In this document: positions 1 to 23,745 of the stretch, in pieces
How the letters are laid out: every line of letters starts with the position of its first letter
How positions within the stretch are numbered: position 1 is the stretch's first letter
IMG/VR virus record: IMGVR_UViG_3300017818_001536
Coordinates: 1 to 35,592 of that record
DNA length: 35,592 nucleotides
Source of the DNA: a virus
Strand: one strand, 5' to 3'
Program-made: the position numbers and the translations under genes
The notes under the pieces: generated by a model
Databases searched by the model: none
What the model was told of the DNA's origin: nothing
Seen by the model: only the letters and a program-made list of their open reading frames with translations

Positions 1-123
1 ATTCGTTGTGCTACAGATTTAGATGACTTTAAAAGAATGAGTAATTTAGATCTTATGTGGGCAGGCGAAATGGAACTACCTAAGTACAAACGATTTATGT
101 TGATCGGCAGGAAACATGTTTAA
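1..123 (+). CDS. C-terminal end of an unidentified protein (partial)
   Basis: An open frame enters from the left edge and runs 40 codons to a TAA at 121-123. The tail ends with residues FMLIGRKHV. It overlaps the start of the next radical SAM gene by 8 bases, the same coupling used throughout this operon, so it is probably the preceding gene of the same plus-strand unit. The fragment is too short to assign a family. An AdoMet methyltransferase or glycosyltransferase tail is possible, but no diagnostic motif is visible. Confidence 0.6.
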   Translation: MRCATDLDDFKRMSNLDLMWAGEMELPKYKRFMLIGRKHV

Positions 124-1183
124 GTTTAGTGATTTAAAAAATATACACTTCGAAATTACTAATCGTTGTCAGGCAAGTTGTCCTATGTGTAGTAGAAATT
201 ATCACGGAGGATTAGAAAATCCTTTGATAAAATCTCAAGATTGGACACTACAAGATTTTAAAACAATAATAACAGATACAGTACTAACACAACTTGAAGG
301 ATTTTATTTTTGTGGAAACTTTGGCGACCCTATTATTAATAATGATTTAATTGATATGTGCCAATATAGTTCAAGTGTAAATCCTAATTTATATATTAGA
401 ATACACACCAACGGCGGCGCAAGAAATAAAGATTGGTGGAAAAAATTAGCAAAAGCATTACCCTCTGCTCACAATGTAATTTTTGCTATTGATGGATTAA
501 AAGACACTCATTCGTTATATCGAATAGGTACAGATTTTAATAAAGTTTTAGATAATGCTAAAGCGTTTATACAAGCAGGCGGCACAGCTGAATGGGCATT
601 TATTAAATTTAAGCACAACGAACATCAATTGCAAGCGGCAGAAGCACTTGCTAAAGATTATGGATTTGCACGTTTTACATATAAAGATAGTGCAAGATTT
701 GTTGCTACTAAAAACTTTGAAGTTCTTAACAACAACGGAGAAGTTATATACAATTTACAGCCGCCTACTGGTAGTAAAATTAATTTAATTACACAAGATA
801 CTATAGACAATTATAAAGATATTGTAAACGCAAGTGAAATTGATTGTTATGTAAAACAAACCAAAGAAATCTATATAGATGCATACAAGAATGTTATGCC
901 GTGTTGTTTTTTAGCAAGTATACCTTATAATTATAGTACAACTAATGACATAGCAATAAAAATAAAAACTGAAATTGAAAATCAATATAAAGATCTTGTT
1001 AATGATTTAGGTAATACAAATGCATTAGAAAAATCTATTCAAGATATAATTGACTCAACATCTTGGCAAACTGTATGGAACAAGTATTGGAATGAAAAAA
1101 AGTTAATTACTTGTGCAAGGACTTGCGGAGTTAATAAACTTAGTAAACCTAAAGATCAGTTTATTGAAAAAGTAGAACTATGA
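116..1183 (+). CDS. Radical SAM protein with SPASM-like C-terminus
   Basis: This 355-residue protein has the radical SAM CX3CX2C motif at C18, C22 and C25, which binds the [4Fe-4S] cluster that cleaves AdoMet. The core follows with a GNFGDP segment near 68-72. The C-terminal part carries C244, a CC pair at 263-264 and C333/C337, a SPASM/twitch-like arrangement expected to hold an auxiliary Fe-S cluster. SPASM enzymes commonly modify peptides, proteins or sugars. It overlaps the upstream partial gene by 8 bases and the downstream PP-loop gene by ATGA, so it is translationally coupled in a radical SAM operon. The family is secure; the substrate is not known. Confidence 0.9.
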   Translation: MFKFSDLKNIHFEITNRCQASCPMCSRNYHGGLENPLIKSQDWTLQDFKTIITDTVLTQLEGFYFCGNFGDPIINNDLIDMCQYSSSVNPNLYIRIHTNGGARNKDWWKKLAKALPSAHNVIFAIDGLKDTHSLYRIGTDFNKVLDNAKAFIQAGGTAEWAFIKFKHNEHQLQAAEALAKDYGFARFTYKDSARFVATKNFEVLNNNGEVIYNLQPPTGSKINLITQDTIDNYKDIVNASEIDCYVKQTKEIYIDAYKNVMPCCFLASIPYNYSTTNDIAIKIKTEIENQYKDLVNDLGNTNALEKSIQDIIDSTSWQTVWNKYWNEKKLITCARTCGVNKLSKPKDQFIEKVEL

Positions 1184-1881
1184 TATATTTTAACTCAAAT
1201 TGGAAAAACATAGGTATTAGTTTAAGTGGCGGAGCAGATAGTGCTTTGTTAGCGTATCTTGTTTGCTCACAAGTTAAAGATACACGAGTACACATTTTAA
1301 GTCATGTTCGTATGTGGAAAACAAGACCTTGGCAACGTTACGATAGTATTAATGTTTTTAACTGGTTACAAAAACGTTTTCCTAATATTGAGTTTATTCG
1401 TCACGAAAACTTTATTCCACCTGATTTAGAATATGGTGATAAAGGTGCGTATATTGAAGATGAATATGGACAAGTTCGTAGCGGTGATCAAATTATAGTA
1501 AGATCTCATGCAGAATGGGTTGCTGTGACTGAAAAGTTAGATGCCTGGTATGCAGGTAAAACTAAAAATCCAAGTGATCCTAAAATTACAAAAGGTATGC
1601 CTGATAGAGATATTACTAAAGAAGATCCAAATGAACTTGTTAAAGAGTTTATGGGTGTTACAGTTTGTCATCCGTTCTTGTATACAGAAAAAGATTGGAT
1701 TATTGCTCAGTATGTTGAACATGATATTTTAGACTTATTAAATATCACACGTAGTTGCGAAGGCGACTTTGAAGATTTAGATTATACAAATTATATACCT
1801 GGACAAGAAGTACCAGAATGTGGAGAATGTTTTTGGTGCCAAGAGCGTAACTGGGCAATGGATAAAAATAATGTCAAATAA
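1180..1881 (+). CDS. QueC-like PP-loop ATP pyrophosphatase
   Basis: This 233-residue protein shows the PP-loop SGGADS at residues 16-21, which binds ATP and adenylates a carboxylate or similar group. The C-terminal CGEC..C..R segment (C214, C217, C220) plus upstream C193 forms a four-cysteine zinc site. QueC (7-cyano-7-deazaguanine synthase) ends in a similar motif, but there the first cysteine is much closer; here 20 residues separate C193 and C214. No QueD, QueE, FolE or DpdA homologue was recognised in the window. It may instead activate an acid or amidate a product for the surrounding radical SAM enzymes. The start overlaps the previous stop as ATGA. Superfamily is confident; preQ0 synthesis is doubtful. 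Confidence 0.8.
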   Translation: MIYFNSNWKNIGISLSGGADSALLAYLVCSQVKDTRVHILSHVRMWKTRPWQRYDSINVFNWLQKRFPNIEFIRHENFIPPDLEYGDKGAYIEDEYGQVRSGDQIIVRSHAEWVAVTEKLDAWYAGKTKNPSDPKITKGMPDRDITKEDPNELVKEFMGVTVCHPFLYTEKDWIIAQYVEHDILDLLNITRSCEGDFEDLDYTNYIPGQEVPECGECFWCQERNWAMDKNNVK

Positions 1882-3256
1882 GATTAAAGAATATCAAGAC
1901 ACAATACATAAAGTTAGCGGTACTCCTACTTTCTGTGTACTACCTTGGATACACTTTGCTACAAGACCCAATGGCGATATGCGACTATGCTGTAGTGCAA
2001 ACGCAAGCGGTGCTGGCGAAGATCACGAAGTAGGTCTTGTTAAAATGGAAAACGGTCGCCCGGCAAACTTTGGTCGTGAAACACCTATGGAAGCATGGAA
2101 CAACGACTATATGAAAAGTGTACGTACAACTATGCTTAAAGGAGAAATACCTGCAAGTTGTACAAAATGTTTTCAAGAAGAATCAAAAGGTATTGTAAGT
2201 AAGCGTATTTGGGAAACAGGAACATGGCATGAAGATGGCGTTGACATTCCGGAACTCATCCGTCAAACTAAAGAAGATGGCACAGTACCGGAAGAGTTAG
2301 TATATTTAGATTTACGTTTAGGACATACTTGTAATATTAAGTGTGTTATGTGTAGTCCTCATGATAGTTCAAAATGGGTTTCTGATCACAAGAAACTTAT
2401 TCCTGTATTACAAGATCCTGAAGTTAAAAGACAAATGCAATGGGATCGCAAAGAGTTTAATAACAAGTGGCACGAAAAAGATACGTTTTGGGAAGAAATG
2501 TATGCACAGATTCCTAATTTAAAACAAGTATACTTTGCTGGCGGCGAGCCTTTGATGATTAAAGAACACAAGCAATTTATTGAAGAAATTATTCGTCAAG
2601 GATATCAAGATAAAATTTTACTTCGTTATAACTCAAACGGGTTGTTAGTAGATGAAGATTTAATTGAACTTTGGAGTAAGTTTAAAAAAGTTAAATTTGC
2701 AGTAAGTATGGATGCATGTTATGAACGTGATGAATATATTCGCTATCCAACTGACTTTAAAACTGTAGAACGTACTTTACATTTACTTGATAATACTCCA
2801 GATAATATACAAACAAGTTTAGCAACAGCAATACAAATATTCAACGTAAAACATTTGCCAGACTTTATGAAGTGGAAAGTTGAAAGCGGATTTAAAAAGT
2901 TAAATTCGGGTAACGTTCCAGGCGGTGTGCAGATGGGCGGAGGTTTAGTTAATATGCACTTATTGTACATTCCTACGTTTTTAAGCATACAAATTCTACC
3001 TAAAGAAGATAAGCAAGAAGTTGAAGAACGCTTTATGGACTTTAAAGACTGGCTGTGGAAAAACTATAGACAGGACGATGACTATTGGAAAATTAATCCG
3101 TATGGTTGGAAACGTTGGGAAGCAGTATTAAAGCATATGAACGCAGAAGATAATAGTTATCTGCTACCTGGATTTAAAGAGTATACAAATAAACTTGATG
3201 CTATTAGAGGATTGCAAGCGGCTAAGGTATTTCCTGAGTTAGCACATTTATTGTAA
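1871..3256 (+). CDS. Radical SAM protein with N-terminal twitch domain
   Basis: The ATG at 1871 gives 461 residues and overlaps the PP-loop gene by 11 bases. A further upstream ATG at 1820 would lie deep inside that gene and add only non-conserved residues. An N-terminal twitch/SPASM-like half carries C22, CC at 40-41 and C97/C100. The radical SAM motif follows at C154, C158 and C161. This order, auxiliary-cluster domain before the core, matches the 'twitch domain-containing radical SAM' group as I know it. GGEP, typical of radical SAM cores, is visible further on. The closest relative in the window is the minus-strand gene ending at 7163. The substrate is unknown. Confidence 0.88.
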   Translation: MSNKIKEYQDTIHKVSGTPTFCVLPWIHFATRPNGDMRLCCSANASGAGEDHEVGLVKMENGRPANFGRETPMEAWNNDYMKSVRTTMLKGEIPASCTKCFQEESKGIVSKRIWETGTWHEDGVDIPELIRQTKEDGTVPEELVYLDLRLGHTCNIKCVMCSPHDSSKWVSDHKKLIPVLQDPEVKRQMQWDRKEFNNKWHEKDTFWEEMYAQIPNLKQVYFAGGEPLMIKEHKQFIEEIIRQGYQDKILLRYNSNGLLVDEDLIELWSKFKKVKFAVSMDACYERDEYIRYPTDFKTVERTLHLLDNTPDNIQTSLATAIQIFNVKHLPDFMKWKVESGFKKLNSGNVPGGVQMGGGLVNMHLLYIPTFLSIQILPKEDKQEVEERFMDFKDWLWKNYRQDDDYWKINPYGWKRWEAVLKHMNAEDNSYLLPGFKEYTNKLDAIRGLQAAKVFPELAHLL

Positions 3257-4320
3257 TGACAGATTTTACTACTCTCGAGCCAGTAAGGGATAAATTTTTT
3301 CATGTAGAATGGGAAACAACTCTTAAATGCAACCTTGACTGTAGCTATTGTGGTGACGGCCACGACAATAAATTACCACATCCTTCATTAACAGAAAGTT
3401 TAGATACTGTTGATTTTATTTTTGAGTATGTAAATTATTATATGGAGCGAAAGCCTCAAGAACATAGGCATGTTAATATAAATGTATTTGGAGGCGAAAG
3501 TTTATTCCATCCTAAAATTATAGAAATTTTAAAATATTTACGAAATAAAAGACAGGAATATGATTTTAGTTGTAATGTAAGTACAATTACAAATGCTATT
3601 GTTGGACCAAAACTATGGTCAAATCTTGCACAATATTTAGATTATTATACAATTAGTTATCATGCTGAAAGTACTACAAAACAGCAACAAATGTTAAAAA
3701 ATAATGTATTATATTTAAAATCAAAAAATAAAAATTTTCAAGTAAACATTATGATGCACAATAAACATTGGGATAATTGTATTGCAATGGAAAATTGGTG
3801 TAAAGAAAATGACATTAAATATCATTTAAGACAAATTGATCATGATTGGTTTGATAGAAGATTTAACTATACAGCAGATCAAAGTGAATATTTAACAGGA
3901 GAAAAACCAGCCGGATTAGGATTAATTGCTATTGCGGCACTTACTGGACAAATTGATTTATCTAATCATGGCAGAGCTTGTTGCGGCGGCCAACCTATGT
4001 GCTGTGGCTCTAATGAAGTTGATTATGTAAAAGGTAATAACTTTAAAAATTGGTCGTGTTCTGTAAATGAATTCTTTTTGTATATAAAACAAAATACTGG
4101 CGAAGTATACACAAATAAAGATTGCAAAATGAATTTTAAAAACAAGGTAGGACCAATAGGACATTTAAAAGATACTAAATCTATTCTCGATAGTATTAAG
4201 AAAAATCCTGTTATTACTTGTAAAAAGAAAAGTTGTTGGTGCGGATTATGTGCGCCAAAAGCCAAATATAAAGAAGACTACGAACGTATAATGGTTAAGT
4301 ATAGAAATGAAGTTAACTAA
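3256..4320 (+). CDS. Radical SAM protein, CCGG type with C-terminal Cys cluster
   Basis: This 354-residue protein has the radical SAM motif at C25, C29 and C32 (CNLDCSYC) and a FGGES segment. A CCGG motif with further cysteines lies near 240-250. The C-terminus has CX4CXCX2C at C322, C327, C329 and C332. These extra cysteines suggest one or two auxiliary Fe-S clusters (SPASM-like). The start overlaps the previous stop by one base (TAATG), with no Shine-Dalgarno sequence, so it relies on coupled translation. The best relative in the window is the minus-strand gene 5259-6278, which shares CCGG and the identical C-terminal spacing. The substrate is unknown. Confidence 0.88.
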   Translation: MTDFTTLEPVRDKFFHVEWETTLKCNLDCSYCGDGHDNKLPHPSLTESLDTVDFIFEYVNYYMERKPQEHRHVNINVFGGESLFHPKIIEILKYLRNKRQEYDFSCNVSTITNAIVGPKLWSNLAQYLDYYTISYHAESTTKQQQMLKNNVLYLKSKNKNFQVNIMMHNKHWDNCIAMENWCKENDIKYHLRQIDHDWFDRRFNYTADQSEYLTGEKPAGLGLIAIAALTGQIDLSNHGRACCGGQPMCCGSNEVDYVKGNNFKNWSCSVNEFFLYIKQNTGEVYTNKDCKMNFKNKVGPIGHLKDTKSILDSIKKNPVITCKKKSCWCGLCAPKAKYKEDYERIMVKYRNEVN

Positions 4321-5287
4321 AATACAAAATAATTTAAAACCTAATCAATTGCGTATTGAATATATGTTGGGCAATTTATGCAATCATAAATGCTCGTATT
4401 GTTTTCCTGGAAGCAATGAAGGATCGCACCCTTGGCCTGATATTAATCAAGTTAAAACTAATCTTTCTCATTTATTAAACTACTATGAAAAGAGAGGTAA
4501 AGATTATTTTCAATTATATCTAATAGGAGGCGAACCAACATTATGGAAAGAACTTCCTGAGTTTTGTCGATATTTTAAAGAACATTATAACTGTCAAATT
4601 AATATTTCTACAAATGGATCAAGATCAATAAGTTGGTGGGAGAAAAATGCAGACTGCTTTGATGTGATAGAAATTAGTGTACATCACGAGTTTGCAAAAG
4701 TAGAGCATCTTAAGAAGGTTGCAGACCTAATATATAAAAAAAATATATATGTAAACTGTAACGTATTAATGGATTATGGACATTTTGAAAAATGTAAAGG
4801 AATTGTAAATCAATTAAAAACAAGTAAAAAGCGTTGGCCAATAATTGCTAAAACAGTAAACATAAATGGCGCAACTTTTTATAATAATGAAGAAACAAAA
4901 TATCTTGAAAACAGTTTAAAGCGTATGCCTAATTTGTTTTGGTATTGGCGTGTTAGTGTAGATACTGAGATGAAATTAAAACTAACATTTAGTAACGGTA
5001 GTACTAAAAAAATTGTTGGAGATAATTATATCTCACTTCATAATCTTAATAAATTTGAAGGTTGGACGTGTGACTTGGGATTAGATGTTATTAAGATATT
5101 TCAAGAAGGAACAATACGATCAAACTGTCAACAAAAATTATATAGATTAAATTATGATTATAATTTATATGATAAAGATTTTGTTAAAAAATTTAATCCA
5201 AGATTATGCAATGTAATATGTCAGCAAAAAGTTTGCGGCTGTAGTGGAGAAATTAGTATTAATAAGATAAGTCCTGAATATCAATAG
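4307..5287 (+). CDS. Radical SAM protein, short C-terminal Cys type
   Basis: This 326-residue protein carries the radical SAM motif CNHKCSYC at C25, C29 and C32 and GGEP further on. Its C-terminal cysteines are C301, C305, C310 and C312; the last two with C305 form CX4CXC, as in the minus-strand gene 6271-7170. It overlaps the upstream radical SAM gene by 14 bases and is the last gene of its operon. Its 3' end overlaps the convergent minus-strand gene by 29 bases, with no terminator between them. It is likely an Fe-S tailoring enzyme acting with its neighbours; the reaction is not known. Confidence 0.87.
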   Translation: MKLTKIQNNLKPNQLRIEYMLGNLCNHKCSYCFPGSNEGSHPWPDINQVKTNLSHLLNYYEKRGKDYFQLYLIGGEPTLWKELPEFCRYFKEHYNCQINISTNGSRSISWWEKNADCFDVIEISVHHEFAKVEHLKKVADLIYKKNIYVNCNVLMDYGHFEKCKGIVNQLKTSKKRWPIIAKTVNINGATFYNNEETKYLENSLKRMPNLFWYWRVSVDTEMKLKLTFSNGSTKKIVGDNYISLHNLNKFEGWTCDLGLDVIKIFQEGTIRSNCQQKLYRLNYDYNLYDKDFVKKFNPRLCNVICQQKVCGCSGEISINKISPEYQ

Positions 5288-6278
5288 CCTTTGGAACACA
5301 CATTCCGCAACCACATCTATTATTTGGACATACTATTGTTTTATTAAAATTGCTTTTAGCGTACTCTAAAATTTTATCAATGTTATTTAAATTGCCTATA
5401 GGGCCTCTTAGACCGTCGTGTAGTGCTTGACAAGTCTGATGATGATATACGTTGCCCGTATGTTGATCAATGTGTAAAAAGTACTTGTTTACAGTACAAT
5501 ACCAGCCTTTAAAGTTAGTATCAATAAAGTTTACATCTTGCCATTCACCGTTTACTTTACCTTGCATACAACGTCCGCCACAGCAGTTGCGACCCTCTTT
5601 AGGTTCTGTAACTCCTAAATAATTAAAATACCATTGTTTTTGCTCGTCTGAATAATCATGTGATGTTCTGCGATTACTGCCATCAGAATCAATAAACCAT
5701 CCCTTGCGTTCTACAATGCCATCGCCTATTGGTCTTGGGTTATGGTTAATACCTAATTCTTTTAATTCGTTACATAGGTTAACACATTCATCAAAGTAAT
5801 CAACATGCATCATTACATTTACTTGAAACCATAAATCAGTTTTACCAAGTAATTTTATATTTTCAATTACTTGTTTTTTCAATACAGGATCTGCCTCTGC
5901 ATGGTAACTAACGGTTATACCGTCAAATAGTTCTGATATACGTTTTGTATTTTTAGGATGCCAGGCTCCGTTTGTTGTAAGACTTAATCTAAAACGTGTT
6001 TCGTTATTATTAATATATTCTGCAAGTTTCCAAAATGCAGGATTTACTGTAGGTTCGCCACCTGTAAAATTTATATTTACAAGGTCGCTATAGATTTCTG
6101 TATACTCTCTTACAAACTTAAAAGTTTCTAATAGTTCTTCGTAAGTGTGTAATGGACTTTTTAAATCATGTCGACTTGCTTCACAATAAGTGCAGTCGTA
6201 GTTACAGCGTCTACCAATGTCCCATGTAACCATTAGTCTTTCAAAGCCAGCTAATTTTACAGCAGTTGTTTTAATCAT
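5259..6278 (-). CDS. Radical SAM protein, CCGG type with C-terminal Cys cluster
   Basis: The ATG at 6278 gives 339 residues and overlaps the upstream gene by 8 bases. A longer frame reaching 6359 would run deep inside that gene and is rejected. The radical SAM motif is at C25, C29 and C32 (CNYDCTYC), with a TGGEP segment in the core. A CCGG motif and a C-terminal CX4CXCX2C (C317, C322, C324, C327) match the plus-strand gene 3256-4320 in order and spacing. It is the last gene of the minus-strand trio, and its 3' end overlaps the facing plus-strand gene. An auxiliary Fe-S cluster is likely; the substrate is unknown. Confidence 0.88.
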   Translation of the reverse strand: MIKTTAVKLAGFERLMVTWDIGRRCNYDCTYCEASRHDLKSPLHTYEELLETFKFVREYTEIYSDLVNINFTGGEPTVNPAFWKLAEYINNNETRFRLSLTTNGAWHPKNTKRISELFDGITVSYHAEADPVLKKQVIENIKLLGKTDLWFQVNVMMHVDYFDECVNLCNELKELGINHNPRPIGDGIVERKGWFIDSDGSNRRTSHDYSDEQKQWYFNYLGVTEPKEGRNCCGGRCMQGKVNGEWQDVNFIDTNFKGWYCTVNKYFLHIDQHTGNVYHHQTCQALHDGLRGPIGNLNNIDKILEYAKSNFNKTIVCPNNRCGCGMCVPKAIDIQDLSY

Positions 6279-7170
6279 CTTTAACCTTTGAAAGAGGAAT
6301 ATCTGCGGCACAAGTACACCATTCTCTTGTACATATAATAGGTTGTTCTGGAATTTCAAAGTCGCCGTCGTATATATTACCTAAACTGCCACCTACACGA
6401 CAAGTGGCACGATGCACATCACCGTCCCAGTTAATCATTAAACTTTCAATTCCGGCATTACATTTCCATCCTTTAAATTGATTTTTATGTTCTTTGATAA
6501 CGTCATTAGCATGAATTTGTATACCGTCGTCAACAACACAGTTGGGTAATGCTGTAGCAGTATTATCAATTATCCATTGTAAGTCTTTTTCTTTATAACG
6601 CATGTCGTCAAACCAGTCGTGTTTTTCAGTCCAACGAATCCTACGAATAGCATATGGAATATTGTGTCCGTGTAGTCTTGCAACAGCCTGTTTTACATTT
6701 ATCATATGTTCGTGGTGCGCCATTACATTTACATGAAAAGGAGTGCATTCATTTGTTTCATTTAGTTGAGCATAAAATGTAATATTATCTAAAGCTCTTT
6801 CCCAATGCTCGTTATCAAAATGTAAACTAAACACATAATGACTTACTGGTTGTCTCTCATACCATTCTGGAGAGCGTAGTCCGTTTGTAGTTACATTAAC
6901 CCAATCTAATCTTTGGTGTGCATGTTCGATTAATTCTTCTATGTCAGGATGTACACACGGTTCACCACCTGTAAAACTAACACGAATAGGCTTACCTATT
7001 TCTGCAAGTGCATCAACAGCATCGAGTAATACTTTTATATTAGTGTGAGGACTAAAGTTGTCATGTATTTCTGCAGGACAATACGCACAGTCTAAGTTAC
7101 AACGCTTACCTAAATTCCATTCAACTTTGATACTATCTTGATGAGGCCATTTAGATGTAATGCTATACAT
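6271..7170 (-). CDS. Radical SAM protein, short C-terminal Cys type
   Basis: This 299-residue protein has the radical SAM motif CNLDCAYC at C24, C28 and C31, then TGGEP, and a C-terminal CX4CXC at C280, C285 and C287. The C-terminal pattern is like that of plus-strand gene 4307-5287. It overlaps both neighbours by 8 bases, so the three minus-strand radical SAM genes 5259-8431 form one translationally coupled operon. It is shorter than the CCGG-type paralogs because it lacks the CCGG insert and the final cysteine. Function in detail is unknown. Confidence 0.87.
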   Translation of the reverse strand: MYSITSKWPHQDSIKVEWNLGKRCNLDCAYCPAEIHDNFSPHTNIKVLLDAVDALAEIGKPIRVSFTGGEPCVHPDIEELIEHAHQRLDWVNVTTNGLRSPEWYERQPVSHYVFSLHFDNEHWERALDNITFYAQLNETNECTPFHVNVMAHHEHMINVKQAVARLHGHNIPYAIRRIRWTEKHDWFDDMRYKEKDLQWIIDNTATALPNCVVDDGIQIHANDVIKEHKNQFKGWKCNAGIESLMINWDGDVHRATCRVGGSLGNIYDGDFEIPEQPIICTREWCTCAADIPLSKVKDD

Positions 7171-8431
7171 AATTTTTAAACTCCGGATTTACACTAAGGA
7201 AATCTTGCCCGCGAGTTTTGTCTAATGCACGATTAAAGTTTACACAATCTTGCCAATGTGTATCATACATACATTTCGCCTGTAAAAAGTTAATATTATC
7301 GTCAATTTGTTGGAGAGTTACTTTTTTAAGTAATTCGTTTTCTTGTATTATTTTATAATCTAAAACTTTGTTTTTCATTTCATGCAACTGAAAAACTACT
7401 TTATCCTTTAGATCAGGCGGCAATGTTTGCGCTGAAAGTGCCATAGGATAGTTTACACGATGCGAGTAAAAAACAATGCCCATTTCATTTAAAAAGTAAT
7501 CTATCACTTTATCAATTTGCATAATATTATTTGCTTGTACAGTAAATGCGCCTACTACTCTGCTTACGTTAGGAAACGATTTAAATACTTTTACATTTTC
7601 TTCTATTTCACTAAATTTGCCGTTGCCTCTAATGTACTCATAGACATCGTGTATACCGTCTATACTTACGTTTACAGCAATTGATTTAAACTTAGGCCAA
7701 TAGTCGTGTATGGTACGTCCGCCTTTTATACCTAACGTAGTGCCGTTTGTAGCATACTTTAGTTCTATATTGTCGCCATACTCTGCAAGTTTGTCAAGTA
7801 TCTTATAATGATAAGGATCCATTAATGGTTCTCCGCCAGCAAACTCTACCCTACGGAAGTGCGGCAATAGTTTTTCAAAACTTGTCCACCAATTGTCTGA
7901 ATTGTCAAACGGACCAATATACTGCCCAGGTTTGTCTACAAGTTTTTCAACTGTAGGAATAAGATAATTGTTTTCTTTTTTATAAAATTCTGTAACTTGA
8001 TCCCAATCTTTCCAACTTGTGCTATCCAAAGGATTACACATACGACATTTTAAGTTACACAGGTTATTAAGTTTAATTTCCATAGTAGGAAATTCAAACG
8101 GCATTGTGTAATCTTCTTCTAATGCGTCTAATGCATCAGGGTATAAGTTTATACGTGCCTCAGGTATTACCCCTGCTATATGACGCTGTCGTAAGCTCTG
8201 TACACCCTGATCTTCGAGGTCAAAGCACGGTTTGCATACATCAGGACGCTCGTTATTCAGTACTTGACGGCGTACTTCACGCATAGCATCACCATTCCAA
8301 ACTTCTTCAAGACTTTCGTTTTGAATCCATCCAACAGGTTGACTACGACAACATACCTTAATAGCACCATCTTCGCGTGTAGCAAGCCCTGTAAAAGGGT
8401 GCATACAAAATGTGCATGAGTTACTGTTCAT
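7163..8431 (-). CDS. Radical SAM protein with N-terminal twitch domain
   Basis: This 422-residue protein begins with a cysteine-rich twitch-like half (C6, C9, CC at 27-28, C66/C69), then the radical SAM motif CNLKCRMC at C125, C129 and C132 and a GGEP segment. The domain order and the WN-D...C-x2-CF stretch match plus-strand gene 1871-3256. It is the first gene of the minus-strand trio. No Shine-Dalgarno sequence precedes its ATG. Instead the late-like octamer GATAAGTA ends 5 bases before the ATG, so the mRNA may begin at the start codon. The substrate is unknown. Confidence 0.88.
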   Translation of the reverse strand: MNSNSCTFCMHPFTGLATREDGAIKVCCRSQPVGWIQNESLEEVWNGDAMREVRRQVLNNERPDVCKPCFDLEDQGVQSLRQRHIAGVIPEARINLYPDALDALEEDYTMPFEFPTMEIKLNNLCNLKCRMCNPLDSTSWKDWDQVTEFYKKENNYLIPTVEKLVDKPGQYIGPFDNSDNWWTSFEKLLPHFRRVEFAGGEPLMDPYHYKILDKLAEYGDNIELKYATNGTTLGIKGGRTIHDYWPKFKSIAVNVSIDGIHDVYEYIRGNGKFSEIEENVKVFKSFPNVSRVVGAFTVQANNIMQIDKVIDYFLNEMGIVFYSHRVNYPMALSAQTLPPDLKDKVVFQLHEMKNKVLDYKIIQENELLKKVTLQQIDDNINFLQAKCMYDTHWQDCVNFNRALDKTRGQDFLSVNPEFKNYV

Positions 8432-8470: not shown

Positions 8471-9142
8471 ATGATATCGCCTACTAATTATACAATAGAT
8501 TTAACTAAATTGCAAGAGGCAAAGGAAGAATTACCAACTGTAGATTTTAAACTTGCTTTAAACCAACCTACAGGAGACTTTTTCTACGAACCTTGGGAAA
8601 TAAAAACAGAATTTCAAGGTACAGTGTGGGATGATATCTTACAATCATTAGGCCAAAATATAGGTGAAGCAAGACTTATTAAGTTAGAGCCTGGAACATG
8701 TTATCATAGTCATAGTGATATTGATAATAGATGGCATTTAACTATTGAAGCAAAACAAGCATACTTGGTTGACATTACATCTAAAAAAATATATACTTGT
8801 GTTGACGACGGAGTATGGTATGATATGAATGCAGGCACATTACATTCTGCAACTAATTTTGGCAACACTGACAGAGTACAGTTAGTAGTTAGACAACTTC
8901 TACCAAAAAACGAGTTAGAAGAATCTGTAAATGTAATAGTGACACTTAAACAATATCGCCCAGATTTTCGATATATTTTTGATAATACATTAAGCCCTTG
9001 GCTTAATTTTCAAGCAAACAATGCAAAAATTTTAACTAATTTTAAAAACGAAAATAACATAGTATCATTTGATATTGATCCTAAAGCAATAGATAATTTA
9101 AAAGCACTATTAGATCCTATATTTGAAGTAAAGGTGGCGTAA
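8471..9142 (+). CDS. Asp/Asn beta-hydroxylase-like 2OG-Fe(II) oxygenase
   Basis: This 223-residue protein has a double-stranded beta-helix iron site: H81-x-D83 in the HSHSD segment, then RWHL at 87-90, distal H125 in GTLHSATN, and R135 or R141 as candidate 2-oxoglutarate-binding arginine. The RWHL and HSATN spacing resembles the aspartyl/asparaginyl beta-hydroxylase family, which hydroxylates side chains using O2 and 2-oxoglutarate. It is the first gene of a long plus-strand operon of similar enzymes. The next gene begins on its stop codon (TAATG), preceded by an AAGGTGG ribosome site. The substrate could be protein or a small molecule. Confidence 0.72.
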   Translation: MISPTNYTIDLTKLQEAKEELPTVDFKLALNQPTGDFFYEPWEIKTEFQGTVWDDILQSLGQNIGEARLIKLEPGTCYHSHSDIDNRWHLTIEAKQAYLVDITSKKIYTCVDDGVWYDMNAGTLHSATNFGNTDRVQLVVRQLLPKNELEESVNVIVTLKQYRPDFRYIFDNTLSPWLNFQANNAKILTNFKNENNIVSFDIDPKAIDNLKALLDPIFEVKVA

Positions 9143-9702
9143 TGGACTATGTAGGAAATACTGGATCCCTTATTGATTGGGATAAAATAACATCTTCGCT
9201 TGACAGTAAACAAGGTTTAGTTATTGGTCATGCAGACGAAGCGTTTAAAGATGTAGAGAGAACTCCAAACGAAGATGCACAAATAAAAATGCTTATAGAA
9301 GCCGGATACAATGACATGGATTCTATTGAATGGGCTAATTTTTTCTCAGGGCAAGACTATGATACTAATATTGACAAAGTTTTTGGAGATATTGTAAATG
9401 CAGACTGTATGGTATCTTGGATTAGTAGAATACGTCCGGGAAAATGTGTTCCTTATCATTGGGATTTTAACGACGAGTACACTGAGCAAATTGAAGCAAA
9501 CCGACCAAACGTAGTTAGATATATTGCACACATTTGTGACCCCAGTTTTGGACAAGTTTTTTGGTGTGAAGATAAATGTAACTGGAATGAAGAAAAAGGT
9601 GCAATTTATAAATGGAAAGATTTTGAATCATACCATGGAGGGTCAAACTTTGGACTTAGAAAAAAATACCTTTATAATTTTTTAGCAGTAAGGAGATCTT
9701 AA
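9142..9702 (+). CDS. HxD...H oxygenase-like protein, tandem paralog 1
   Basis: This 186-residue protein has RPGKCVPYHWD with H106-x-D108, then H165 in a YHGGSNFGL segment and basic residues just after (R173, K174, K175). That fits the iron triad of a 2OG-Fe(II) or related cupin-fold oxygenase. It shares an N-terminal EAGYNDMDSIEW-type stretch and the C-terminal HGG motif with the next two genes, so the three arose by tandem duplication. A TAATG junction couples it to each neighbour, and an AAGGTGG ribosome site lies upstream. Function is inferred from fold motifs only. Confidence 0.65.
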   Translation: MDYVGNTGSLIDWDKITSSLDSKQGLVIGHADEAFKDVERTPNEDAQIKMLIEAGYNDMDSIEWANFFSGQDYDTNIDKVFGDIVNADCMVSWISRIRPGKCVPYHWDFNDEYTEQIEANRPNVVRYIAHICDPSFGQVFWCEDKCNWNEEKGAIYKWKDFESYHGGSNFGLRKKYLYNFLAVRRS

Positions 9703-10247
9703 TGGCAGAATTTGTAGGAAACTTTTTTGCTGGAAAATGGGATAGTATTATTGCATTACTTTCAGTTCAAGACGGAGAGCCAAGACGCTTTGATCAAAAG
9801 TTTTTTGAAAATACAGATGGACGTTTTGATGAAAATATTAAAATGTTAAAAGATGCTGGCTACGATAAAGTTGACAGTGTTGAATGGATTAATTATTATC
9901 CAGGTAAACATTTTGACGAACTATGTGTTAAAGAATTTGAAAAATTTGTAGGTATGAAATGCGCCAGAGCCTGGATTAGTAAAATCCGTCCAGGCAAATA
10001 TGCTCCAATACATAAAGATATTGATGATAATATTGAAGAATATCAAGCACAAGGAGATTTGTATAGATTTAGCACATTTATTAGTCAACCATCTCCTGGC
10101 GGAGTATTTGTGTTTGAAGATCAATGTTTTCATTATGAAACTTCAGGAAATACATATAAATGGAATCATTATATGGATTGGCACGCTGGCGGCAACTGTG
10201 GACTAAAAGACAAGTACATGTTTCATTTTTTAGGGATTAAGCAATGA
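9702..10247 (+). CDS. HxD...H oxygenase-like protein, tandem paralog 2
   Basis: This 181-residue protein has RPGKYAPIHKD with H104-x-D106 and distal H161 in WHAGGNCGL, the same plan as both neighbours. An AAGGAGA ribosome site precedes the start. The DAGYDKVDSVEW stretch near 51-62 aligns with the equivalent stretch in paralog 1. The expected role is an Fe(II)-dependent oxygenase acting on a late phage product; the cosubstrate is not proven because the 2OG-binding arginine is replaced by lysines (K169, K171) in this region. Confidence 0.65.
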   Translation: MAEFVGNFFAGKWDSIIALLSVQDGEPRRFDQKFFENTDGRFDENIKMLKDAGYDKVDSVEWINYYPGKHFDELCVKEFEKFVGMKCARAWISKIRPGKYAPIHKDIDDNIEEYQAQGDLYRFSTFISQPSPGGVFVFEDQCFHYETSGNTYKWNHYMDWHAGGNCGLKDKYMFHFLGIKQ

Positions 10248-10798
10248 AGTATATAGGTAACTCAAATAAAGAAATGAACTGGCCAGAGCTTATGGATATA
10301 TTAACAAGTATACCTCCAAGAGAGCGAGGAACAGATCAAGAAGACGATATTCATATTGATAATCCCAAAGTACAACAATTAATAAAGGTATGGGAAAACG
10401 CCGGCATTAAAAATAGTCCGGACATACAATGGGTTGATTTTTTACCGGATATGCATTTCCCTGCAGAATGGGTACAAAAATTTGGAGATTGGTTAGATGT
10501 TGAACCGGCAGGTGCTTGGGTAAGTTCAGTTCCTCCAGGATACATGGTTCCTTGGCATCCTGATTATAAGATGCCAGACGAAGAACAAGAATGGCTTGCA
10601 AAAGGGTATTTGCATCATTATACCTGTTACATTTGCAAACCAAGTTTTGGTCAAGTATCGATAGTTGATAAAGATGCTGTCTATAATGCAACACAAGGAG
10701 ATGTGTACGAATGGGACGATTGGCAAGATTGGCACGGCGGTCTTAATATGGGTTTAGAAACAAAATATATGTTTAACTTTTTTGGATGGAAAAAATGA
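10244..10798 (+). CDS. HxD...H oxygenase-like protein, tandem paralog 3
   Basis: This 184-residue protein has PPGYMVPWHPD with H105-x-D107 and distal H164 in WHGGLNMGL. It is the third member of the tandem set and overlaps paralog 2 by ATGA. The positions of the triad are nearly identical in all three (H104-106, D106-108, H161-165). The N-terminal 60 residues and the region between the metal ligands differ most, which suggests distinct substrates or positions on one substrate. This is inference from sequence comparison by eye. Confidence 0.65.
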   Translation: MKYIGNSNKEMNWPELMDILTSIPPRERGTDQEDDIHIDNPKVQQLIKVWENAGIKNSPDIQWVDFLPDMHFPAEWVQKFGDWLDVEPAGAWVSSVPPGYMVPWHPDYKMPDEEQEWLAKGYLHHYTCYICKPSFGQVSIVDKDAVYNATQGDVYEWDDWQDWHGGLNMGLETKYMFNFFGWKK

Positions 10799-14030: not shown

Positions 14031-14439
14031 AGATTGGATAAACAGAATTTCAAAATCGCAAGAATTATTAGGTGGATATTCGGTCTGTCCTTATGCTAAA
14101 AATGCACAATATGAAATTGTTAATACCAACGGGCGTAACATTACAGCCCCAACGGGAGATTTTGAATTAGTAATTTATGTATTACCGGACGATTATTCAC
14201 AAATAAAAGTTGAAGAAATAGCACAGGAATACAATTTATTATATAAAGAATTGGTATTTTTACCAGATCCAAAAGATCGATATACAGAAATTAATGGTGT
14301 ACAAACAAATAACGGAAAACAAAATTTAATTCTTTGCCAGCCAAGGGCTAAACTAACAGAAGCAAGAGAAAGACTTGCTAAAACTGAGTATTATAGTTAT
14401 TGGGACGAAAATTATTTACAGGAGATTTTAGATACATGA
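14020..14439 (+). CDS. Small protein with CPYA motif (DUF1415-like?)
   Basis: This 139-residue protein has a GYSVCPYAKNA segment near residue 23, then an alternating strand/helix region. The 'CPFA' motif with a following alpha/beta region recalls DUF1415 proteins, but I cannot confirm that by eye. It overlaps the SDR by 11 bases and the amidinotransferase by ATGA, so it is made with them. Function unknown; a redox or metal role for the single N-terminal cysteine is possible. Confidence 0.6.
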   Translation: MHIKDWINRISKSQELLGGYSVCPYAKNAQYEIVNTNGRNITAPTGDFELVIYVLPDDYSQIKVEEIAQEYNLLYKELVFLPDPKDRYTEINGVQTNNGKQNLILCQPRAKLTEARERLAKTEYYSYWDENYLQEILDT

Positions 14440-15509
14440 CATGTTGGACAGAATATGATCCATTAAAAGAAGTAATTGTAGGCGACTGTAATACTTCTGG
14501 AGATTTTGATTGGTTCCTTGACGATAAAGTAAAACCTAAGTTTAACCTTATATTAGAAGAAACAAAAGAGGATTTACAAAATCTTAGCGACTATCTAACA
14601 AAGATGGGAATTAAAGTACACAGACCTATTCCTACAAAATTTAATGGCGAAGTAGATTTAGGAAATTTTAAAATACCTAATCCAGCAAGTCCTATTGTTC
14701 CACGAGACCAATACTTGTCATATGATAATAAAATAATACAGACATATACAAGCATGGTAGATAGATATCTTGACAACTCAGCATACTATCATATCTTTAA
14801 AGAATTTTTTGACCGTGGTTATAATTGGATTAGCATGCCACCGCCTGTATTAGAAGACTTAGCAGAAACAGAAAAATGGTGGATTAAGGGAGAAGAAATT
14901 TATCACGATAAATTTAAAGACAAACTTCTTTGGCATACAGCAACAATGTTTAAATTAGGTGATGCTTTAATTACTAATACAAACGGACCTGGAAATAATC
15001 TTGGATTAGAATGGATGTCCCGTAACTTAAATGATATTAAGATAGTAGAAAATAAAGACACACATCAGCAAGGCTTTGGCCATATTGATCACGGTTGGTT
15101 TATGACTGATGACGAAACTGTATTTTGTGTAGATAAAAGTTGGGTTCCAGCAGTATTACATAATAAAGAAATTATTGAACTACATGAATATTTTGATCCG
15201 TTTAACGAAGAAAAGTTCTTTATGGACTATACAAGTACAAACGGAAAGTATAGTGTTGAATGGTTAGATAAATGGCTTAACGGATGGAAAGGATATTCTC
15301 AAGAATGTTTCTTTGATACTAACGTATTAGTTTTGGACAGCAATAATATATTGTTTACTAATGAGCAACCTCGTATTTTTAAATTGATGGAAAGTAGAGG
15401 TATTAACTGTCATGTAGTACCACAACGTCACAGTTTTTTCTGGGAAGGTGGTGTACATTGTTTAACTTTAGATTTAGTTAGAGACGGTAACAAGAGAATA
15501 ATATTCTAA
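14436..15509 (+). CDS. AGAT/StrB-type amidinotransferase
   Basis: The ATG at 14436 (ATGA overlap) gives 357 residues. The pentein-fold hallmarks are present: PRDQ near residue 89-92, the GHID segment with H216 and D218, and the C-terminal GGVHC with catalytic C342. Glycine amidinotransferase and inosamine-phosphate amidinotransferase transfer an amidino group from arginine to an amine, making a guanidino compound and ornithine. The length fits that family. It ends the plus-strand operon and overlaps the convergent aminotransferase by 36 bases. The acceptor amine is unknown. Confidence 0.85.
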   Translation: MTCWTEYDPLKEVIVGDCNTSGDFDWFLDDKVKPKFNLILEETKEDLQNLSDYLTKMGIKVHRPIPTKFNGEVDLGNFKIPNPASPIVPRDQYLSYDNKIIQTYTSMVDRYLDNSAYYHIFKEFFDRGYNWISMPPPVLEDLAETEKWWIKGEEIYHDKFKDKLLWHTATMFKLGDALITNTNGPGNNLGLEWMSRNLNDIKIVENKDTHQQGFGHIDHGWFMTDDETVFCVDKSWVPAVLHNKEIIELHEYFDPFNEEKFFMDYTSTNGKYSVEWLDKWLNGWKGYSQECFFDTNVLVLDSNNILFTNEQPRIFKLMESRGINCHVVPQRHSFFWEGGVHCLTLDLVRDGNKRIIF

Positions 15510-16703
15510 TATTGCGTTTTCAAGTCTATTTTTAAGATCAGTAAAGTATTGTTCGTCAGCATTTAATGGAATACAAATTAAAACGCCTTCTTTCATATCA
15601 TTCCATATACCTATACTAATGCCGTGTTTAGTACACACAGTTTCAAAATCGTCATTAAAAGGACGTTCTTTGTTTAGGTCTAAATGAAACATCAATCCAT
15701 GATGTCTATAATCACTAATGACATTGTTATTTTTAAGATAATCAAAAATATCCAAAGAATTTTCTAAAATTTTAGGATAATTGTCATATACATTTTCTTC
15801 TTCAAGACATTTTATATAGTGTAACGCACTAAGTATTCCAGGCATTGAAAAGCTGTAAGTAAATCCGTGTTGTAATATTTGATATCTTGCATAATCGTAT
15901 ACACGTTCGCTCACCATACATGCCGATAACGGATAAAATCCACCAGTTAATGCTTTACCTAAAGTAAAAATATCTGGTTTAACAAGATTTTCAAATCCTA
16001 AAAATGTTCCTGTTTTGCCTCCGCACATTGCAATGTCGTCAACAACAAGAATTATATCATATTTGTCGCAAATAGCTCTAAGTCCTTGCCAAAATTCTTT
16101 AGGTAAATTATACATACCCATTTGCCACGAGCAAGTTTCAATAACTATACAGCTGACATCATTGTTTAATGAATTTATGAGTTGTTCTAATTTTTCAAGA
16201 TCGTATGGAGATGAGTGACATTTGTCATGTCGTCCATAATAGTCGTAAATATAATCACATCCGCTTATGCTTGTACTCATAAACGTACTACCGTGATAAG
16301 CATATTCAAACCCTATAATATGTGTCTTAGGAGATCCTTTTTGAACATGATACATATGTGATAATTTTACAGACGCTTCAATACTGTCGCTACCTGATAG
16401 TGCAAAAACACTTCTATAACCGCCACTAATATCATATAATTTTTGTGCAAACTCTAATACATGCTCGTTAGTTAATAAAAATTCTCCAGTACTTGTAGGA
16501 TTAGTTTTAAGTTTTTCGGAAACACTGTCAATAAAATCTTCTCTATCAAATCCTAAAGTAAAGCATCCGCAGTTGCCTAACCCTAAGTCAATTACGTCTT
16601 TGTTATTTTCAACAAAGCCAAATTTTGTAAAGTGAGATACATTGCGTGGAACTATGTCAGTAGAATGGTCTGTAAAGGGAAATATTAATTTTGAATCTGT
16701 CAT
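15474..16703 (-). CDS. Class III PLP-dependent aminotransferase
   Basis: This 409-residue protein has the class III landmarks: GSDSIEA at 104-110, YHGST at 136-140, the VVDDI..CGGKTG segment with D222 contacting the PLP nitrogen, and the Schiff-base lysine K250 in GKALTGG. Members include ornithine, acetylornithine, diaminopelargonate and taurine-type aminotransferases, and glutamate semialdehyde mutases. It would aminate a carbonyl, perhaps for the amidinotransferase opposite. It overlaps the upstream oxygenase-like gene by ATGA. The exact substrate cannot be read from sequence. Confidence 0.88.
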   Translation of the reverse strand: MTDSKLIFPFTDHSTDIVPRNVSHFTKFGFVENNKDVIDLGLGNCGCFTLGFDREDFIDSVSEKLKTNPTSTGEFLLTNEHVLEFAQKLYDISGGYRSVFALSGSDSIEASVKLSHMYHVQKGSPKTHIIGFEYAYHGSTFMSTSISGCDYIYDYYGRHDKCHSSPYDLEKLEQLINSLNNDVSCIVIETCSWQMGMYNLPKEFWQGLRAICDKYDIILVVDDIAMCGGKTGTFLGFENLVKPDIFTLGKALTGGFYPLSACMVSERVYDYARYQILQHGFTYSFSMPGILSALHYIKCLEEENVYDNYPKILENSLDIFDYLKNNNVISDYRHHGLMFHLDLNKERPFNDDFETVCTKHGISIGIWNDMKEGVLICIPLNADEQYFTDLKNRLENAILEYYSLVTVSN

Positions 16704-17354: not shown

Positions 17355-18962
17355 ATGAAAATAGTTATTATTGGCGGCGGTAGCTCAGGTTGGATGACAG
17401 CATCTTGGCTTAATCGTTACGTGCCTAATAACGAAATTACACTAATTGAAAGTCCAAATGTAGCAAGAATTGGTGTTGGTGAATCTGTAACAGTTCATAT
17501 TAAAGAATTTTTAAGTGCATTAGATATTGATGAAACTCAGTTTATGTACGAAACTGGCAGTGTATACAAATATGGAAATAATTTTATCAATTGGGTGCAT
17601 GGCAAAGGCGAATGGGAAAATTTTACATTTGGATGGAATAAAAGTCAACACCATTTGCTAAGGTCTCCGTATCACGGCGTTAACTGGTTAGATCATAGAG
17701 ATGTAAAAGCAGACGAAGTTAGATTTACTGATTATTGGTTAGAGCTGTATGATAAAGGCTTAGTAGATAAAAGTTTTACACACAGTTACACTTGTTGGCA
17801 TCATTTTACAGAACCTAACTTAGCACCTTATATTGAAAACAATCCGTATTTAAACGGTAATGATTTAGCGTGGGCATACCATATTAACACAGAAAAGTTT
17901 GCAGATTATTTAAGAGATTATGTGGCAGTACCACGAGGCGTAATTAACAAATACGCACATGTAAACAAAGTAGTTACTAATAGTAACAATATTGAAAAAC
18001 TTATATTAGATAACGGTGAAGAAATACATGCAGATTTATTTGTTGACTGTTCAGGATTCCATCGTGTATTAGTTAATAATTTTCAAGATGTAAAATGGAA
18101 ATGGTATAATGACCATCCAGGCGACACTGCATATGTTTGTCAAGTTGATTATGAAGATCCAGAAACCGAAATGGTAAACTATACTAAAAGTATAGCAATG
18201 GACCATGGATGGGTTTTTGATATTGACTTATATCATAGACGAGGAACAGGTTATATTTTCTCAAATGATTTTGTATCTGACGACGAAGTATTAAAAGAAT
18301 ATCATGAAAAGATTTTAACTAAGCCTAAGTTTGAACCAAAAAGGTTACACTGGGATAAAAAACGAATGATTGAACCTGGGTTTGGTAATGTCTGTGCTAT
18401 AGGAATGACAATTGGCTTTGTTGAACCTATGGAAGCAAATATGCTTGGTGTAATATCTAATAGCGCCTGGGAACTTACTCATGCATTGGCAAATAACAAC
18501 TACAATATTGATACAATGGATTGGTCTGTTTATAATAAGCGTTTAGGGTATACGTTTGATGATATTGCAGATTTTATACTTGTGCATTATACCTTATCTC
18601 AGAGAGAAGATACTGATTTTTGGAAAGAAATGAGAAGCATAGGAATTAAAAATAATCATGAACAATTATTAATAGACAAGTATTTAGATCCTAAATCTAC
18701 TATTGATAGCGCAAGTCATGCTGAAGGATTCTTTCCTGACTTTATGTGGTTAGAGCTTGCCGCGGCCTGGGACTTGGATTTAAGTAAATGGCCAAGAAAA
18801 AAGGTTGATCTTGAAGAGGTAGCATTAGCAAAAGCACATTTTGAATACCTTGACAAAGGTTTAAAAGTTGCTTCGAAAAGATTCCAAAATAACTATCACT
18901 TTTTGCGAGAGCATAGATTTAAAGGAATGTCATATTTAGAATGGCTTGAGAAAAAGTATTAA
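17355..18962 (+). CDS. Flavin-dependent (tryptophan) halogenase family protein
   Basis: This 535-residue protein starts with the FAD-binding GGGSSGW at 7-13. GVGES at 40-44, K72 in YKYGNNFINW (position of the lysine that relays hypohalous acid in PrnA/RebH) and FVEPMEA with E357/E360 (position of the catalytic glutamate) are all present. The usual WxWxIP motif is changed to GWVFDIDL at 285-292. Family members chlorinate or brominate indoles, phenols or pyrroles using FADH2, a halide and O2. It is a single-gene unit with its own late promoter and an AGGAG ribosome site, and its stop overlaps the convergent gene by 4 bases. Whether it halogenates is open. Confidence 0.88.
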   Translation: MKIVIIGGGSSGWMTASWLNRYVPNNEITLIESPNVARIGVGESVTVHIKEFLSALDIDETQFMYETGSVYKYGNNFINWVHGKGEWENFTFGWNKSQHHLLRSPYHGVNWLDHRDVKADEVRFTDYWLELYDKGLVDKSFTHSYTCWHHFTEPNLAPYIENNPYLNGNDLAWAYHINTEKFADYLRDYVAVPRGVINKYAHVNKVVTNSNNIEKLILDNGEEIHADLFVDCSGFHRVLVNNFQDVKWKWYNDHPGDTAYVCQVDYEDPETEMVNYTKSIAMDHGWVFDIDLYHRRGTGYIFSNDFVSDDEVLKEYHEKILTKPKFEPKRLHWDKKRMIEPGFGNVCAIGMTIGFVEPMEANMLGVISNSAWELTHALANNNYNIDTMDWSVYNKRLGYTFDDIADFILVHYTLSQREDTDFWKEMRSIGIKNNHEQLLIDKYLDPKSTIDSASHAEGFFPDFMWLELAAAWDLDLSKWPRKKVDLEEVALAKAHFEYLDKGLKVASKRFQNNYHFLREHRFKGMSYLEWLEKKY

Positions 18963-21662: not shown

Positions 21663-22741
21663 AAGAAACAGTTAGTTTATGTGAACATTGTTATAGGCAT
21701 GTTCCTGCACAGGTATTTGAACGTGACGGAAGTGTATGGATGTCTAAAGAATGTCCAGATCACGGAGTTGTCGAGTATATGATTGAACGTGATGCATTGT
21801 TTTATAATTCTTTAGATTACGATGTACATGCTTATGACATACCTAATAGTATTATGATAGAAGTTACAGACAGGTGTAATTTAAATTGTCCGCACTGTTA
21901 TCATGAACCAGAAAACAAAACAACTGATAAACCAATAAGTTCTATTATGTTGCAACTTGAAAAATGGCCTGTTGATGCCGGTGGTGTAATCCTTGCTGGA
22001 GCAGAACCAACTATTAGAAAAGATTTACCTGAGCTTATTGAAACAATATACAATTGGCAACAAACTACAAATCGCACACATCAAGATATTACTATCCTTA
22101 CAAATGGTGTAAAATTAAGTGATAAAAAGTGGGTTCAAAAAATTAAAAATGCTGGATGCAGAGCTGTTATGATAGGAATGAATCATCCTTCTTATCAAGG
22201 AGAAACTGTACATCGAAAACAATTAGAAGGTGTAAAAAATTGTAAAGAAGTAGGTTTAATGATATATTATATTGGTTACACAATTGAAACCTATGACCAC
22301 TTGCCGTTTATTTTAAATGAAATACAAGAATTAGGTGATAGTGCTATACAATATAGAATACGTGCTGGTAGTGATATAGGTAGAAATCCTGACGAGCCTA
22401 AAGTATTTCTTAGTGATAATGTAAATGAAATTAGAACACTTGCTATAGAAAATAACTGGACTTGGGAAAAAATACCGGGTGATGATAATTTATATCATTA
22501 CATGGTTAAAATTAATGATATTACGCATCGTATTATACAATGGAGTGATCCTAAAACAATTGATATGAAAGAATTAAAATGTGGACCGTGGTGCGATTTT
22601 GTTCCTGGGAAACCTGTTAGCAATTTCTTACATCAAGTTATGTTACGTGATGCCGCTGTAAACGAAAATAGAATATTACTTGATACTGTCCCCCAGGAAT
22701 ATACCTTTAGATCGCGGAACGTGTTAAGAAGCGACCATTGA
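21653..22741 (+). CDS. Radical SAM protein with N-terminal zinc/rubredoxin-like motif
   Basis: This 362-residue protein opens with C10-x2-C13 and C34-x2-HG (H37), then the radical SAM motif CNLNCPHC at C75, C79 and C82. This order recalls the archaeal MJ0619/tetraether synthase (Tes) group, whose members act on lipids or pterins by methylene or radical C-C chemistry, but those proteins are longer, around 500 residues. It differs from the seven radical SAM proteins at the left end, which have the extra cysteines elsewhere. The 3' end overlaps the convergent speD gene by 35 bases. Family certain, subfamily tentative. Confidence 0.85.
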   Translation: MAIKETVSLCEHCYRHVPAQVFERDGSVWMSKECPDHGVVEYMIERDALFYNSLDYDVHAYDIPNSIMIEVTDRCNLNCPHCYHEPENKTTDKPISSIMLQLEKWPVDAGGVILAGAEPTIRKDLPELIETIYNWQQTTNRTHQDITILTNGVKLSDKKWVQKIKNAGCRAVMIGMNHPSYQGETVHRKQLEGVKNCKEVGLMIYYIGYTIETYDHLPFILNEIQELGDSAIQYRIRAGSDIGRNPDEPKVFLSDNVNEIRTLAIENNWTWEKIPGDDNLYHYMVKINDITHRIIQWSDPKTIDMKELKCGPWCDFVPGKPVSNFLHQVMLRDAAVNENRILLDTVPQEYTFRSRNVLRSDH

Positions 22742-23737: not shown

Positions 23738-23745
23738 CATTTATG
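23738..23745 (-). promoter_or_regulatory. Late-like promoter, near-leaderless
   Basis: The minus strand reads CATAAATG, one base from consensus, then six bases, then the ATG at 23731. The predicted start is 23732, one base before the ATG. It faces the plus-strand element head-on. Confidence 0.4.

Follow-up and report, generated by a model that had tools for sequence, protein, structure and literature searches.

Two facing operons in a marine viral genome fragment each carry radical SAM (rSAM) genes of the same three types, and it can be asked whether a three-enzyme unit was duplicated here or whether the two runs have separate histories. The window (the whole stretch of DNA analysed) is the entire 35.6-kb IMG/VR viral record IMGVR_UViG_3300017818_001536. 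An initial annotation read the locus as three paralog pairs, i.e., a working unit kept twice, possibly as heteromeric or sequential enzymes acting on two related substrates. Its gene calls hold: all six rSAM ORFs are present where it placed them and all pass the Pfam Radical_SAM (PF04055) cut-off (33.8-52.2 bits against 29.5), and the window does contain both trios, with the last two types in swapped order. Six rSAM genes within 6.6 kb are far from a chance occurrence, and the layout is conserved among the phages compared. A seventh rSAM gene (A355) and a QueC-like gene share the plus operon with P1-P3; a terminator-like site was looked for between the facing operons and none was found. The features are listed below with their presence among 83 relatives that carry P1 and M1 orthologues; where a contig stops within the array, these counts are minimum values.

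1-123, plus strand: 3' end (40 codons) of MT200, class-I methyltransferase-like protein of 200 aa, truncated by the window edge; 79 of 83
116-1183, plus strand: A355, rSAM protein (PF04055 33.8 bits), first complete gene of the plus operon; 70 of 83
1180-1881, plus strand: QueC-like PP-loop ATPase with SGGADS loop and C-terminal Cys motif (phrog_1550, 2.6e-10); 63 of 83
1871-3256, plus strand: P1, N-twitch rSAM protein, in a clade with Bdellovibrionota proteins
3256-4320, plus strand: P2, CCGG-type rSAM protein with C-terminal auxiliary-cluster cysteines (PF04055 33.8 bits; clade support 100), optional; 18 of 83
4307-5287, plus strand: P3, short rSAM protein with C-terminal cysteines (PF04055 44.5 bits), in a separate clade, optional; 60 of 83
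5259-6278, minus strand: M3, CCGG-type rSAM protein (PF04055 52.2 bits) with bacterial relatives, optional; 41 of 83
6271-7170, minus strand: M2, short rSAM protein (PF04055 49.9 bits); 83 of 83
7163-8431, minus strand: M1, N-twitch rSAM protein
8471-9142, plus strand: AspH1, Asp/Asn beta-hydroxylase-like, divergent from M1 (PF05118 22.2 bits, just below the cut-off of 22.6); 64 of 83

The most probable start codon of M3 is the ATG at 6278, not the TTG at 6359. MT200 is called methyltransferase-like on motifs judged by eye; its 40-aa window fragment is 70% identical to the C-terminus of the copy in L322. Neither MT200 nor F394 had a Pfam or PHROG match, and GT239 was matched below cut-off only. 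The QueC-like protein scores 16.9 bits with PF06508 (cut-off 22), and classical QueC identity was set aside; a Bdellovibrionota homologue reaches 27.6 bits. In the relatives the QueC-like gene mostly adjoins M1 instead.

The CX3CX2C motif is found in all six rSAM proteins, which otherwise fall into two kinds. P1 and M1 belong by score to the N-terminal twitch family NF033640 (395 and 332 bits against a cut-off of 170), show conserved C, CC, and CxxC motifs ahead of the rSAM core, and match the SPASM/twitch domain PF13186 at the N-terminus (22.1 and 34.5 bits, cut-off 21.5). P2, P3, M2, and M3 score 17-44 bits with NF033640 and gave no PF13186 match in the Pfam search; they have in common a C-terminal WxC...C...CX4CXC motif, and their C-terminal Cys set is invariant across 25 sequences. 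A CCGG segment occurs in P2 and M3 and is absent from P3 and M2. Since CX4CXC is present in all four proteins, it does not mark the proposed "short CX4CXC type", and "short" denotes the lack of the CCGG segment only. The N-twitch scans were carried out with a narrow alignment, a nine-row diverse alignment being too variable.

The duplication hypothesis predicts that P1 and M1 are sisters. Aligned directly, they are 26% identical (138 bits). In profile comparisons P1 scores 1166 with bacterial P1-like proteins and 384 with M1, while M1 scores 404 with another bacterial N-twitch group. Screening of whole bacterial genomes recovered a Bdellovibrionota M1 relative that adjoins an M2-like gene and matches the window M1 at 223 bits; with the same program, phage P1-M1 comparisons score approximately 121-126 bits. 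P1 groups in the tree with Bdellovibrionota proteins (SH-aLRT 97-99) and M1 with different Bdellovibrionota proteins (92), and forcing the two phage proteins together is 83 log-likelihood units worse (p-AU 8.7e-11). An earlier N-twitch tree also placed P1 beside Bdellovibrionota, yet P1+M1 monophyly then gave p-AU 0.21; the first AU tests (0.21 for P1/M1 and 0.24 for P3/M2) were run without the right bacterial relatives. All supports are SH-aLRT values from quick searches in which several rows are long-branched. By these comparisons P1 and M1 are each nearer to bacterial proteins than to one another, the very outcome that the initial annotation had named as refuting it, and with this sampling the N-twitch genes cannot be counted as a duplicated pair.

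The other two pairs differ in their outcome. P3 and M2 are 23% identical (65 bits), and M2 scores higher with P2 (92 bits) and M3 (77 bits); in profile comparisons M2 scores 260 with M3 and 188 with P3 (bM2 rows, contaminated by M3-like sequences, were left out). The free tree places P3 and M2 in separate clades, and a joint clade is 41 units worse (p-AU 0.06). P2 and M3 are 32% identical (166 bits). M3 scores 621 with bacterial M3-like proteins and 545 with P2; the CCGG proteins form one clade (support 99) in which M3 joins bacterial rows first (82-89), and a joint P2+M3 clade has p-AU 0.39. A deep sister relationship is thus plausible for P2/M3, the sole pair left so, and these two may be true paralogues. 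Of the three pairs proposed, P2/M3 is the plausible one, P3/M2 lacks support with M2 nearer to M3, and P1/M1 is rejected. Elsewhere in the window, two B12-binding-type rSAM genes (23743-25356 and 25359-26960, plus strand) lie in tandem and are 47% identical; on sequence they make a much better candidate for local duplication than the six array genes.

Next, we compared the array among relatives. Five scans of viral collections yielded 141 distinct viral groups, and orthologues of both P1 and M1 are present in 83 of these; M1 alone matched 290 stretches in IMG/VR, the best 80 of 290 at 84-89% identity. P1 faces M1 in 81 of the 83. P2 was found only alongside M3 and P3 (16/16 in the tree set), the co-occurrence having Fisher p values of 8e-7 with M3 and 0.004 with P3; an independent-pair test that takes kinship into account gives a median p of 0.03 in favour of P2-P3 and has too little power for P2-M3. 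In 15 of the 17 relatives with both genes the plus-strand order is P3 then P2, mirroring M1-M2-M3, so the "swapped" order in the window is the rarer state. Median identities separate a slow tier (M1 0.72, P1 0.68, M2 0.59, MT200 0.57, and QueC-like 0.57) from a fast tier (P2 0.46, AspH1 0.42, A355 0.39, and P3 0.38). The array therefore consists of a slowly evolving core (MT200, P1, M2, M1, and the QueC-like protein) and a fast or optional shell (A355, P3, M3, P2, and AspH1). The notion of a working unit survives in part: P1, M1, and M2 occur together nearly everywhere and P2 accompanies P3 and M3, but the trio itself is not constant.

An ancient inverted duplication of the N-twitch/short/CCGG trio followed by strong divergence would explain the identical three classes on both strands and the mirrored order in those 15 of 17 relatives, and the P2/M3 result, with the borderline one for P3/M2, agrees with it. 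We nevertheless consider it very unlikely. P1+M1 is rejected at p-AU of about 9e-11 with each protein in a different outside clade, P3 and M3 vary independently of one another, and the trio is missing as a unit in most relatives. The comparisons suggest that the two runs are mostly separately kept enzyme lines, not copies, and the whole-unit duplication first proposed has to be abandoned.

The phages that carry the array can be placed from other genes. The window encodes a 5'-3' exonuclease and a MoxR-type ATPase that are approximately 50% identical to the versions of PA5oct-type jumbo phages. The longest array-bearing relatives are 331-357 kb, and a T4-type gp23 capsid gene is present in 9 of 11 long relative records tested; the one capsid protein that was set against isolates, the gp23 of a long relative, shares 71-72% identity with those of PA5oct, a Vibrio jumbo phage, and Sinorhizobium phage Phosso. 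Judged by these genes, the array-carrying phages are T4-like marine jumbo phages. Among isolated phages only weak matches to the array proteins were found (21-28% identity; Vibrio, Campylobacter, and Acinetobacter phages and a marine single-cell virus), those to P1 and P2 being partial, and P3 had no match among the isolated phages searched. A 3.5-kb contig assigned to a "Thermoplasmata" archaeon (L341, 1-3537) scores 885 bits for phage-type P1, 452 for M3, and 364 for M2, and was judged to be a misplaced phage contig.

Cellular counterparts are found in Bdellovibrionota. In two genomes, G012 (937-kb contig) and G016 (917-kb contig), there are islands with N-twitch, A355-, M3-, M2-, QueC-, MT200-, AspH-, amidinotransferase-, and GT239-like genes; the contig size and the ordinary neighbouring genes argue against misplaced phage DNA. 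A355 homologues lie near P1 homologues in this phylum. Of 97 genomes sampled from the phylum to which G012 belongs, 24 carry N-twitch matches above cut-off; at E 0.001 the number of matches reaches 18 in some genomes, other rSAM proteins being included in it. The same families are common to the bacterial islands and the phage array; unlike the latter, the islands are chromosomal, carry more N-twitch paralogues, and have a different gene order. Our literature search found no paper on Bdellovibrionota rSAM islands. It is conceivable, though doubtful, that a modular rSAM pathway for an undescribed surface polymer or modified virion or host molecule, with a fixed core and swappable tailoring enzymes, is common to marine jumbo phages and Bdellovibrionota. 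In the G016 island the M2-like gene directly before the M1-like gene (M2-like gene at L365, 14295-15397; G016:C1:754294-755396) is divided between ORFs of 250 and 118 aa that overlap, either a frameshift or a real split.

In the phages the array lies within a larger rSAM island. The 11 long relatives have 11-16 PF04055 matches each, packed in several of them within approximately 22-40 kb. UDP-glucose dehydrogenase, epimerase, cytidylyltransferase/mannose-6-P isomerase-type protein, and carbamoyltransferase genes are found above Pfam cut-offs in the islands or their flanks; the glycosyltransferase matches of several island genes are weak or under cut-off. A tail-fibre-like protein of the window (26955-28169) carries the N-terminal domain of the major tropism determinant (Mtd_N), and its homologues flank the islands of G001, G004, and G002. 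Adjacent structural-looking proteins with a common GYGQ motif (L356 779-2761 and L362 5824-7812) are encoded beside the G001/G002 islands; a Pfam search of one gave no match.

Structure comparison gives limited guidance on the substrate. The AlphaFold models of M3 and M1 are confident (pLDDT 90.6 and 90.9), and the closest solved folds are SPASM/twitch enzymes, both peptide-acting (SkfB, SuiB, and anSME) and sugar-type (BlsE and DesII). The top match of M3 is the sugar-nucleoside enzyme BlsE (Z 17.6), with which the peptide enzyme SkfB ties (Z 17.1), so fold matches do not discriminate sugar from peptide enzymes. The M1 N-twitch aligns weakly (E 0.004) with the twitch of the aminocyclitol dehydrogenase BtrN; BtrN does not appear in the VIA-align match list for M1, an absence that is compatible with kinship. 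BtrN, BlsE, and SkfB resemble the array enzymes in combining an rSAM fold with an auxiliary cluster domain, but the fold alignments show 14-19% identity and the twitch of P1 and M1 is N-terminal rather than C-terminal.

We tentatively favour one convergent array of rSAM tailoring enzymes working sequentially on one substrate, the likeliest being a sugar or glycan precursor, over two copies of a trio. Each enzyme would use the 4Fe-4S cluster bound by CX3CX2C to generate a 5'-deoxyadenosyl radical, and the auxiliary cluster (N-terminal in P1 and M1, C-terminal in the others) would serve substrate binding or electron return. The enzymes may act in sequence on a shared substrate, with P1 and M1/M2 installing conserved modifications, P3 and M3 providing alternative or additional steps, and P2 acting after, or together with, M3; the product would alter the host surface or the virion. 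The earlier idea of sequential enzymes would be compatible with this scheme; that of a duplicated unit serving two related substrates finds no support. The sugar-nucleotide genes and Mtd_N protein in or beside the islands, the bacterial islands of the same families, and the likeness to BtrN and BlsE speak for this scheme, in which a glycan is the most likely substrate. The hydroxylase-like neighbours would fit a protein substrate as well, and the majority of SPASM/twitch enzymes with known function act on peptides. Our second choice, possible but less probable, is that the enzymes modify a peptide or a protein such as a tail fibre or another receptor-binding or virion component, with the AspH-like and 2OG-oxygenase-like hydroxylases as partners. 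It would suit the presence of SkfB, SuiB, and sactipeptide- and sulfatase-maturing enzymes among the top fold matches, an island adjoining tail genes including that of the Mtd_N protein, and an AspH-like neighbour in 64 of 83 relatives. Against it, the sugar-nucleotide enzymes of the island would be superfluous, and the array has no precursor peptide gene: all neighbouring gene pairs from 116 to 8431 overlap, which leaves no room for one, and no conserved short ORF family (at least 45 aa) was found among the common families of the relatives. A RiPP cluster was set aside since no precursor peptide gene lies beside a maturase.

Two further readings concern nucleotides. Changes of DNA bases that involve 7-deazaguanine or depend on rSAM enzymes are known in other phages, and the QueC-like and methyltransferase-like genes, which would be the partners in hypermodification of phage DNA or nucleotides, belong to the core. 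We regard such a role as unlikely, given a QueC-like protein below the QueC cut-off, an array situated among tail and sugar genes, and identical families in bacterial chromosomes. In NCBIfam, M3, P3, and P2 match prokaryotic viperins best, and the PADLOC matches of all six proteins are prokaryotic viperins too, as would be expected of anti-viral or superinfection-exclusion enzymes making modified nucleotides. These matches, pVip of PADLOC included, span the shared rSAM core only (approximately residues 16-130 of M3), the best NF038283 score is 56.9 bits (M3; cut-off 180), and the C-terminal auxiliary-cluster cysteines are present. The viperin reading was set aside on the sub-threshold, core-only match, and we consider it highly improbable.

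Radical SAM chemistry is costly and oxygen-sensitive, so a phage with 11-16 such enzymes must gain something specific. Hundreds of viral contigs carry the conserved core, and predatory-type bacteria have counterparts of it; it offers a defined gene set for expression and testing, and a way of asking what phages build by radical chemistry. That T4-like marine phages can be rich in rSAM genes is already published: a 183-kb genome with 12 rSAM genes, and others with fewer Fe-S genes, have been described (Nishimura et al., 2017; PMC5332604). This is the same general phenomenon; that paper ties the rSAM genes to Fe-S metabolism, and array structure, families, and bacterial relatives do not enter the section concerned. 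Variable rSAM cassettes are likewise published for the host-recognition cluster of pelagimyophages, a hypervariable island with sugar genes beside tail-fibre genes (PMC7029224); those phages are complete at 132-164 kb, whereas the array relatives reach 331-357 kb, and the one capsid protein compared resembles those of PA5oct and other jumbo phages. The literature searched holds no function for NF033640. As far as that literature shows, the fixed core/shell array, its setting in a jumbo lineage, and the toolkit shared with Bdellovibrionota are new.

Several other genes of the window were observed around the array. Three tandem ORFs of one family (9142-10795, plus strand; 181-186 aa) have a 2OG-oxygenase-like HxD...H motif by eye and no Pfam match. 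An amidinotransferase-like gene (14400-15506, plus strand; GGVHC motif by eye, without a Pfam match) has a homologue in the G016 Bdellovibrionota island (147 bits). A class-III aminotransferase and an AdoMet decarboxylase are encoded on the minus strand at 15477-16703 and 22710-23063, and a tryptophan-halogenase-family protein (17355-18959, plus strand; 297 bits) lies within the same phage island as the array.
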